Shown here: piece by piece, positions 50,171-52,247 of the stretch
Layout: each line of letters starts with the position of its first letter
Numbering within the stretch: the first letter of the stretch is position 1
Source of the DNA: Caldinitratiruptor microaerophilus
GTDB lineage: Bacteria; Bacillota; Sulfobacillia; Symbiobacteriales; ZC4RG38
NCBI RefSeq assembly: GCF_025999835.1
Contig: NZ_AP025628.1
Span: 496,001-560,000 of the forward strand
Length of the DNA: 64,000 nucleotides
Direction of reading: 5' to 3'
Position numbers and translations under genes: made by a program
The notes under the pieces: model-generated
What the model saw: only the letters and a program-made list of their open reading frames with translations
Told to the model about the DNA's origin: nothing
The model's database searches: none

Positions 50171-50209
50171 ACGCAGAGGCCCCACCCCCACGGGGTGGGG
50201 CCTCTGCGT
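50171..50209. terminator. Hairpin between convergent RNase J and the QX-repeat gene
   Basis: An 18-bp perfect stem (50171-50188 with 50192-50209) around a CAC loop. It sits between convergent genes and may stop transcription from both sides, although neither strand has a good T-run. Confidence 0.6.
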
Positions 50210-50225
50210 GCGCCGGGCACCGGCC

Positions 50226-50768
50226 TCACGGCTCCTGGCCGGCGGACAGGCTACGCATCTCGCGCAGCACGTCCATGAGCTCGCGCAGCACGCCCGTCCG
50301 ATCGCCGTCCTCGTTGGACCCGCCGAGGCATCCCACGACGATGACCACGACCAGGATGATGAACTGGAACTGCCACTGCTGCTGGGCCTGCCACTGCGCC
50401 TGGAGCTGCGCCTGCCACTGGGCCTGCCACTGCCACTGGGCCTGCCACTGTTCCTGCCACTGCTTCTGCAGCTGGGCCTGCAGCTGCGCCTGCCACTGCG
50501 CCTGCTGCTGCCACTGCTGCTGGAGCTGGGCCTGGAGCTGCGCCTGGGCCTGGGTCTGGGCCTGGGCCATCACCTGCGACTCGGACTCCGCCTGGGTCTG
50601 GATGTTCACCTGGACGACCCCGGCGTAGTCGTCGCTGGTGGGCACGATGACCTCGTGCGGGTATCCCTTCGTGGTGGCCCGGCCGTCGCCGTTGCCGTTG
50701 CCGTTGCCGTCGCTCCCGGGGCCGGCTCCGGATCCACGGGCGGTGCTGACCCGGATCTGTTCCGGCAT
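50226..50768 (-). CDS. Gln-X dipeptide-repeat protein with C-terminal membrane segment
   Basis: A 180-residue protein I do not recognise. Residues 1-68 are polar, with a GNGNGNG run and a short beta-like part (HEVIVPTSDDYAGVVQVNIQTQ). Residues 69-136 are 34 uninterrupted Gln-X pairs, X being Ala, Leu, Trp, Gln, Phe, Thr, Lys or Glu, with nine Trp. A 14-residue hydrophobic stretch (IILVVVIVVGCLGG, 137-150) and an acidic/helical tail follow. In an extended strand one face would be all Gln and the other Trp/Leu/Ala, as in amyloid-forming sheets. ATG with GGGGG upstream; a sigma-K-like element lies 54 bp before it. Possibly a spore-surface or envelope protein; function unknown. Confidence 0.7.
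   Translation of the reverse strand: MPEQIRVSTARGSGAGPGSDGNGNGNGDGRATTKGYPHEVIVPTSDDYAGVVQVNIQTQAESESQVMAQAQTQAQAQLQAQLQQQWQQQAQWQAQLQAQLQKQWQEQWQAQWQWQAQWQAQLQAQWQAQQQWQFQFIILVVVIVVGCLGGSNEDGDRTGVLRELMDVLREMRSLSAGQEP
50361..50564 (-). repeat. Degenerate 6-bp tandem repeat encoding (Gln-X)34
   Basis: The codon for Gln (CAG on the coding strand) recurs every six bases without interruption through 204 bp, while the alternating codon varies among GCC, GCG, CTC, TGG and others. The regular spacing is a DNA-level repeat, but variation of the X codon shows it is kept in frame. Confidence 0.85.
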
Positions 50769-50821
50769 GGGGAAACCCCCTTGACTCGGAGTGGGGAGAC
50801 CCGTCGGATGCTCCCGGTCAA

Positions 50822-50847
50822 CATGTTATGTGGACCACGGTCCAGGT
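50822..50847 (-). promoter_or_regulatory. Sigma-K-like promoter element of the QX-repeat gene
   Basis: On the minus strand CACATAACATGTTGAC contains CATA-ACA-T (50830-50822), with AC 15 bp upstream (50847-50846). It is nearly identical to the element before the first gene of the same block (52220-52247), sharing CACATAANNTGYTGAC. Confidence 0.55.
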
Positions 50848-50914
50848 GCGCCTGGCACGGGGACGGGTGACCTGGACGGGCCCACTCTGCCGCCGGCCGT
50901 GACCGCGCGCCCGG

Positions 50915-51385
50915 TCAGTTCGCCCCCCGATCTCCGGTGGGGCGCCCGAGGTCCATCCGGAGATCGGGGATCTCCCGCGCCGTGCGCCCGCCGGGGATGG
51001 ACCGGCCGGCGGACAGGGGAACCCGGACGGTATGGCGCGCCGTCTCGCCCGGACGCACGCGCAGGTTGTAGACCATCGCCACGGGGCGGCCGGGTGTGCG
51101 GATCCGGAGGCTGTAGAAGCCCGCGGGCAGGTCCTCGACGCCGAATTCGCCCTGCGGGTTCGTTCGGGTGGTGGTGACGGGGTAGCCGGCTGCCGTGCCG
51201 AAGTAGACCTCGACCTCGGAACCGCCCAGGGCGCTCTCGTCCTCCTCGGCGAGGACACGCCCGGCGAGCTGCCCCGAGTGCGCCGGTTGCGGAAGGATGT
51301 TGTGCACGTGGACGTGCAGGGTCTGGGCGTTCGTCTGGGTCACGTTGCCGCGCCCAGGGGGGGCAGGGTCGGTCGTGCGCTCCAC
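50915..51385 (-). CDS. CNA-B/carboxypeptidase-regulatory-like domain protein
   Basis: A 156-residue protein with no membrane segment or signal peptide. After a polar start (VTQTNAQTLHVHVHN) residues about 40-125 form a prealbumin-like beta domain: GQLAGRVLAEEDESALGGSEVEVYF, TTRTNPQGEFGVEDLPAGFYSLRIRTPG and VRVRPGETARHTVRVPL-type strands. Such domains are structural modules in surface proteins. GTG 51385 is preferred, with AGAGGAGG about 10 nt upstream; a longer frame starts at 51406, overlapping the previous gene. Middle gene of the minus-strand block, so probably co-transcribed with the Pro-rich gene. Confidence 0.65.
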   Translation of the reverse strand: MERTTDPAPPGRGNVTQTNAQTLHVHVHNILPQPAHSGQLAGRVLAEEDESALGGSEVEVYFGTAAGYPVTTTRTNPQGEFGVEDLPAGFYSLRIRTPGRPVAMVYNLRVRPGETARHTVRVPLSAGRSIPGGRTAREIPDLRMDLGRPTGDRGAN

Positions 51386-51402
51386 CGGTCGCGGCCCTCC
51401 TC

Positions 51403-52179
51403 TCACGCCCGGGTGTCCTCCGGCACCCGGTACACGAGGACGCGGCGCACCCGCATCCGCTTCAACCGGACCCGCTTCCCGGGGCGAACGGGGGGCGTCG
51501 CCGGATCGGGGTCGGGTTTCGGGGGCGGGGCCAGCCGCTGCGCCAGCAGCTCGAGCGTCCGTTCCATCAGCCGGTCCCAGTCCTGCGCCGACGCCGGGTT
51601 CAGGGAACCGAGGTCGCGGAGGACTTCCCGCGCGGCCGGTGGCAGGTTGAGCGTGGCGAGCAGCCGGCTCATCCGGGCCAGCGGCGCCGGAGAAGGCATG
51701 GGCGGCAATGGCGGCAGTGACGGGACCCGGCTCTCCGCGGCCGGCGGCGCCGGGGCAGGTTCCGCTTCCGGGCCGGGCCCGATGCCGGATTCCCCCGTCG
51801 GCTCGGATGCGTCGGCCTCCCCGTCCTCCGTCTCGGTCGTCCCCTCCGGGACCATGTCTCCCGCGACGGGCGGTTCGGCGGCCGCCGGCGAGGGTCCCGC
51901 GGGCGACGGCGGCGTCGGGGCGGTCGCCGGCTGGGCGATCGTGGCCGAGATCGGGATGCTCGGCTGCCCCGGGGCGTGCAGCGATGCGGTGGGCAGGGGC
52001 GTGGGGTGGGTCGACCCGAGGGGGGTGCTCACGACCTGCGGGCGCGCGGTCCCGGCCTTCCCGGCCCGGGCGTTGTCCGGCAGCGGGGCCGGAGGCGTCG
52101 CGGGCGGTTCGCTCCGGGGCTCGGGCGCGCGCCGCGGGGGCACGGGCATGGAATAGATGACGAGGCGCGTTCGGCCCAT
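51403..52179 (-). CDS. Pro/Ala-rich protein of unknown function
   Basis: A 258-residue low-complexity protein. It starts GRTRLVIYSMPVPPRR and runs through about 150 residues of Pro/Ala/Thr/Glu. A predicted helical part (PLARMSRLLATLNLPPAAREVLRDLG...RLMERTLELLAQRL, about 165-220) follows, and it ends in a very basic segment (RPGKRVRLKRMRVRRVLVYRVPED). There is no signal peptide or membrane helix. ATG 52179 has GGAGGGA upstream. First gene of the three-gene minus-strand block, with a good sigma-K-like promoter. I do not recognise a family; composition resembles spore-coat or morphogenetic proteins. Confidence 0.6.
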   Translation of the reverse strand: MGRTRLVIYSMPVPPRRAPEPRSEPPATPPAPLPDNARAGKAGTARPQVVSTPLGSTHPTPLPTASLHAPGQPSIPISATIAQPATAPTPPSPAGPSPAAAEPPVAGDMVPEGTTETEDGEADASEPTGESGIGPGPEAEPAPAPPAAESRVPSLPPLPPMPSPAPLARMSRLLATLNLPPAAREVLRDLGSLNPASAQDWDRLMERTLELLAQRLAPPPKPDPDPATPPVRPGKRVRLKRMRVRRVLVYRVPEDTRA

Positions 52180-52219: not shown

Positions 52220-52247
52220 CAGCTTATGTGAACCGCTGAGGGCGGGT
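52220..52247 (-). promoter_or_regulatory. Sigma-K-like promoter of the minus-strand block
   Basis: On the minus strand AC (52247-52246), 17 bp, then CATAAGCTG (52228-52220), close to the sigma-K form AC-N16/17-CATANNNTA. The start would fall about 35 bp before the ATG at 52179. The surrounding bases closely match the element at 50822-50847. Confidence 0.55.

Follow-up and report, generated by a model that had tools for sequence, protein, structure and literature searches.

A glutamine-alternating protein family with a putative mother-cell promoter in Caldinitratiruptor microaerophilus and related Bacillota

A minus-strand gene of Caldinitratiruptor microaerophilus encodes a 180-residue protein, here called QX for its Gln ladder, in which 34 Gln-X dipeptides follow one another without a break. 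Five relatives were found in other genomes of the same class, sequence comparison points to selection for the alternation, and a shared promoter element suggests a link of the family to sporulation. For the protein itself we infer a spore location, self-assembly and β structure, and we propose, at a confidence just short of even, that QX is a structural component of the spore surface, produced late by the mother cell, which would assemble through its Gln ladder as β strands.

The QX gene and its surroundings

The host genome consists of one contig of 3,599,694 bases, of which we analyzed a stretch of 64,000 nucleotides (C1:496001-560000; hereafter the window) with a G+C content of 72%. C. microaerophilus JCM16183 is a hot-spring relative of Symbiobacterium with genes for endospore formation and a G+C content of 71% (PMC9933637). 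As judged by its open reading frame and translation, its homologues and dN/dS, 50226..50768 on the minus strand of the window is a real gene; it starts at an ATG with the RBS-like sequence AAGGGGG just upstream. Alignments delineate a start motif, G-V-V-Q-V-N-I-Q-T-Q-A-E-S-E (residues 50–63; 50580..50621, minus strand), which is followed by the ribbon of Gln-X dipeptides (residues 69–136; 50361..50564, minus strand), a hydrophobic block, F-I-I-L-V-V-V-I-V-V-G (residues 136–146; 50331..50363, minus strand), and, from alignments and AlphaFold2, a C-terminal amphipathic helix beginning R-T-G-V-L-R-E-L-M-D-V-L-R-E-M (residues 157–176; 50241..50300, minus strand). Translation bears out the 34 unbroken units and nine Trp that a first-pass annotation of the DNA had reported; besides Trp, the X positions hold Ala, Leu, Phe, Gln, Lys, Glu and Thr.

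Gln accounts for 43 of the 180 residues, and all 43 codons are CAG. Given this composition, the probability of finding Gln at all 34 prescribed positions is about 1e-21, so the alternation is not a product of chance. Nor is the ribbon a pure DNA repeat, since the best tandem unit matches at just 66–78% and relatives swap CAA and CAG yet keep Gln. Inspected by eye, none of the translated members has a signal-peptide-like N-terminus. A 220-residue (LX)n reading frame on the opposite strand (50208-50870) was rejected: it is to the minus strand that the homologues correspond, and dN/dS in the antisense frame exceeds 1.

The gene is flanked by an RNase J gene and a ClpP-like/FtsK-SpoIIIE block, both on the plus strand, and a two-gene operon, p3–p2, lies upstream on the same strand as QX. 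The first gene of the operon, p3 (51403..52179, minus strand), encodes a Pro/Ala-rich protein of 258 residues with a basic C-terminus, which has no Pfam or NCBIfam family above cut-off and one weak match among 41 genomes. The second, p2 (50915..51406, minus strand; 163 residues), shares 4 bp with the end of p3 and encodes a CarboxypepD_reg-like β-sandwich. Ahead of this domain, the N-terminus of p2 alternates (T-Q-T-N-A-Q-T-L-H-V-H-V-H-N) in a way that recalls the QX start motif. No clear orthologues of p2 or p3 were found, so the relatives provide no evidence on operon partners.

Distribution, parity and selection in the QX family

With the window protein the family spans six genomes, all of one class, in which it is present in only 6 of 154 genomes. 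The relatives come from a Symbiobacterium-like genome (G006), Sulfobacillus harzensis DSM 109850 (G422) and three Bacillota MAGs; G396 and G399 are two species in one genus of family f162, and G422 and G423 belong to genus g287. The gene was not found in the g3 genomes, taken as Symbiobacterium, nor in two genomes of the host's own family, and the distribution is therefore patchy. In most relatives the gene stands alone and at another location, and the neighborhoods differ across the family.

The members share an order of parts: an unconserved tail, the start motif (aligned as G-[AV]-[IV]-Q-[VL]-N-[IL]-Q-x-Q-A-E-S, and degenerate in G006), a ribbon of 67–83 residues, the hydrophobic block and an amphipathic C-terminus (aligned as D-R-H-K-x-x-R-E-L-Q-E-L-L). 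The first-pass annotation knew of no family with this pattern, which holds for Pfam and NCBIfam, where no model scores above its curated cut-off and QX consequently falls in no named coat family; PHROGs gives one marginal match (PHROG 4287), which was set aside together with weak Pfam matches as compositional. By these sequence searches, the QX proteins are a small family new to Pfam and NCBIfam. A match in G032 (L003) was attributed to chance, as it has an internal stop and an ABC-transporter neighborhood; matches in G427, G180 and G524 were judged compositional, and a search of plasmids gave no match. A scan of 299 phylum genomes for at least 11 consecutive in-frame CAR-NNN units gave mainly linkers rich in Pro, Gly or Ala and Gln-rich CotF-like proteins, and none of the runs has a Trp/Leu-rich X face. 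A Q-A-Q-A-Q linker was also noted in a protein of another phylum genome that is SpoIIIAF-like by eye (L025, G180:C1:414268 region).

The parity count runs from the start motif up to the final Gln ahead of the hydrophobic block. In the window protein, 38 of the 41 Gln residues from Q53 to Q135 fall on one parity, and four relatives are similarly locked (28/28, 29/29, 29/30 and 32/33), while the G006 member is mixed (19/27). Non-Gln residues break the Gln runs of the relatives with the phase unchanged, and in a MAFFT alignment every ribbon indel among the five members of locked parity has an even length. Codon comparison shows strong purifying selection on the sense frame: between L058 and L060, dN/dS is 0.065/0.783 (about 0.08) for the whole gene, 0.035/0.705 (0.05) from the ribbon onwards, and 0.135/0.093 (1.45) in the codon-aligned antisense frame. 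Although dS between L057 and L059 is saturated, this pair retains Gln at 29 of 34 positions through 14 CAA/CAG changes; elsewhere, just 36 of 65 residues agree. Hexanucleotide slippage could create the parity, but its upkeep through saturated synonymous change argues for selection on the protein. The search for (QX)n proteins in related spore formers that the first-pass annotation had suggested yields five relatives, four of them with locked parity, and signs that the alternation is under selection; the region is not frameshifted or random in the relatives.

The same data bear on whether the ribbon might be a neutral expansion of a hexanucleotide repeat, that is, a weakly constrained linker in which the alternation has no structural role. 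Six-base CAG-NNN units slip easily, Q-P, Q-G and Q-A linkers occur elsewhere in the phylum, and human TCERG1 has a (QA)n tract (PMC9445028). However, the ribbon dN/dS of 0.05, the retention of Gln while the X positions diverge, and a parity that outlasts non-Gln interruptions in five members make a neutral origin very unlikely. The X positions of the relatives include H, D, R, E, S and G, and on these alignments the conserved feature of the ribbon is the Gln ladder alone, not a continuous aromatic/aliphatic face. Of the two-faced ladder envisaged in the first-pass annotation, the Gln face is hence retained and the continuous aromatic/aliphatic face is not.

Structure of the ribbon and comparison with known assemblies

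AlphaFold2 models the window protein as a single long helix (residues 49–149, block-mean pLDDT above 90 over residues 71–130) with a separate C-terminal helix at residues 157–176, and the relative L060 with a helix at residues 36–126 (mean pLDDT 68 in the best model and 51–56 in the others). The pTM is 0.29 for both proteins, the alignment has five rows, and a single-chain model does not address cross-β assembly. Five of the six members have their hydrophobic-moment maximum at 180 degrees and G006 has it at 100 degrees, and windows over the ribbon center of the relatives (W-Q-E-L-H-Q-F-M-L-Q-L-V), which has helical periodicity, favor a helix. The models of the two members tried, this helix-like center and the G006 peak are in line with a late-sporulation spore-surface protein in which the ribbon would be a long α-helix associating into helical bundles, and Gln, Ala and Leu all favor helix formation. 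Strict two-residue parity would be useless in such a helix, however, where Gln at i, i+2 and i+4 spreads round the whole circumference; indels of two and four residues would break a coiled-coil register; and an AlphaFold2 model built from a shallow alignment of low-complexity sequence carries little weight, with no match found by Foldseek in the PDB. We consider the helical alternative unlikely, though one to be reckoned with. An extended or β ribbon needs parity and a helix does not, so the conserved parity favors the former; since alternate Gln residues would not line up on any one side of a helix, we gave parity more weight than the AlphaFold2 models. On the evolutionary evidence, we provisionally favor a β ribbon over a helix.

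The hydrophobic block, which the first-pass annotation had described as membrane-like, comprises at least 11 residues in the window protein and 7–8 in the five relatives, and for this reason does not amount to a membrane span; a transmembrane reading was rejected, as there is no conserved span of 15–20 or more hydrophobic residues.

In the β-ribbon model, the mother cell would produce QX late in sporulation, from a sigma-K-type promoter and without a signal peptide, and the protein would end up in the outer spore layers. The ribbon of 67–83 residues would self-associate as extended β strands, with (i) one face forming the Gln ladder, the side chains of which would hydrogen bond between strands, and (ii) the other face carrying variable side chains, and the short hydrophobic block and C-terminal amphipathic helix may help to nucleate or anchor the assembly. 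Designed peptides offer a close parallel: Q11 (QQKFQFQFEQQ), whose design used polar/nonpolar patterning, assembles into β-sheet nanofibres (PMC11163420), and P11-2 (QQRFQWQFEQQ) appears in reviews of self-assembly (PMC2828541, PMC7966729). In both, Gln alternates with Phe/Trp, and QX ribbons end in Q-W-Q-F-Q-[VF] or similar; whereas the peptides are synthetic 11-mers with charged residues, QX is a natural ribbon set between conserved flanks. Tentatively, and with appreciable doubt, we suggest that one continuous β ribbon, rather than a repeat with turns, builds part of the Symbiobacterium/Sulfobacillus-type spore surface as a natural counterpart of Q11/P11.

The proposed assembly can be likened to the supramolecular self-assembly of Bacillus coat proteins (PMC4950064) and to GerQ filaments (PMC11405398), although no sequence relation between QX and Bacillus coat structural proteins was found. 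The Bacillus subtilis coat is described as having transglutaminase cross-links (PMC6490927), and the ribbon Gln, its conserved residue, could be acyl donors for coat cross-linking of this kind, as in the action of Tgl on GerQ in Bacillus. Yet the Tgl family (PF20085) is absent from the six carriers and from Symbiobacterium, with a positive B. subtilis control, and cross-linking does not require exact alternation, which leaves such a role extremely unlikely.

Curli, FapC and TasA are functional amyloids, and curli and Fap have strand-forming units with Gln/Asn ladders; these repeats are about 20 residues or longer, contain turns and are secreted. QX differs in being one continuous dipeptide ribbon with no signal peptide, and shares with functional amyloids a period-2 strand-like pattern with a Gln/Asn ladder, present in five of the six members. 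The alternating pattern is what led the first-pass annotation to propose amyloid-like assembly, and it would suit a vegetative or biofilm amyloid outside the spore; the N-terminus and the sigma-K-like promoter described below argue against that location, which we regard as very improbable. The sole PDB-sequence match to QX at E below 0.001 is TCERG1 (CA150), which likewise has a long in-frame tract encoded by hexanucleotides. There, unlike in QX, X is almost only Ala with no Trp, and the protein is eukaryotic and nuclear; the match is compositional, with a bias score twice the bit score, and we claim no homology.

If the β-ribbon reading is correct, evolution would have arrived at the strand-forming code of peptide designers, and selection would have kept it in a heat-loving spore former. 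The parity maintained across indels and synonymous change would then document a β ribbon in sequence with unusual clarity, and would put an AlphaFold helix prediction on low-complexity sequence directly to the test.

The promoter element and sporulation genes

A sigma-K-like element, AC-N15-CATAACATG (50822..50847, minus strand), lies 62 bp ahead of the QX ATG, and another, AC-N17-CATAAGCTG (52220..52247, minus strand), 49 bp ahead of the p3 ATG; the -35 spacing of 15 in the QX element is short. Sigma-K promoters of C. difficile have AC at -35 and CATATAAT at -10 (PMC3789822), and those of B. subtilis have a gap of 14–16 between the two (PMC517825). As sigma-E and sigma-K have the same -10, "mother-cell sigma" is a safer label than "sigma-K".

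The pattern AC-N15-17-CATANNNTR is found upstream of five of the six QX genes, roughly 48–107 bp ahead of the start, versus 2 of about 114 other genes (Fisher p = 6.5e-7, for a motif chosen after the upstream sequences were viewed). The motif nonetheless agrees with the published type of mother-cell promoter. Upstream of the G399 member the sequence is CGTAGGATG, in which CGTA replaces CATA. Six of the 119 genes called in QX loci have the element, namely p3, a GNAT-like gene and four QX genes; gene calling was crude and missed the QX gene of G006, which was added by hand. Over the whole host genome, ACATARVMTGNNG occurs nine times, versus once for a reversed-pattern control. It precedes the QX gene, p3 and genes for an NP-repeat/DUF6385 protein, a LysM+FG-GAP protein, a subtilase, a Phe/Gly-rich peptide and two family-less proteins; the ninth occurrence, ahead of a fumarase-like gene, is probably due to chance. 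In G006 the QX gene adjoins NP-repeat genes, one with the same element, and a divergent gene also has it. The shared element suggests that the QX family is linked to sporulation, and at the sequence level these sigma-K-like promoters lend support to the sporulation role raised by the first-pass annotation. If this is right, the element also offers candidate spore-surface proteins for bacteria of the Symbiobacterium/Sulfobacillus type.

Among the host products behind the element, the NP-repeat protein (L073, G000:C1:823973 region) is 250 residues long and repeats S-N-P-T-[AP]-A-S-L-L-A-Q-V about ten times in addition to its DUF6385 domain, and proteins like it are encoded beside the QX gene in G006. 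The Phe/Gly-rich peptide (L078, G000:C1:3412212 region) has at most 46 residues and contains M-P-F-G-F-W-P-F-S-F-G-G.

SpoIVA was found in all six QX carriers, but since almost every genome of the class has it, this co-occurrence is not informative. The sigK gene, or pieces of it, was likewise found in all six, intact above cut-off in G396, G422 and G423 and split or partial in the host (G000), G006 and G399. The host gene is apparently split near R-C-I-E-N|E-I-L-M into halves at C1:860430-860798 (plus strand; L079) and C1:1386248-1386694 (minus strand; L080), 525 kb apart on opposite strands, and a gene for a large serine recombinase (861621-863180) adjoins the N-terminal half. Rejoining the halves would need a half-megabase inversion, not excision in the manner of a skin element, and an assembly or strain rearrangement possibly underlies the split. 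In G006, sigK lies in five pieces on contigs C241, C267, C127 and C66 (L081-L084), with internal junctions at I-S-I-G-T|V-G-L, at R-C-I-E-N|E-I-L-M and near T-L-[VI]-D-V|L-G-S-D, so that it possibly holds three intervening elements; the remaining breaks are contig ends. The N-terminal part in G399 (L085, C105:2515-2847) ends in R-C-I-E-N-D followed by a stop, as if cut at the same codon.
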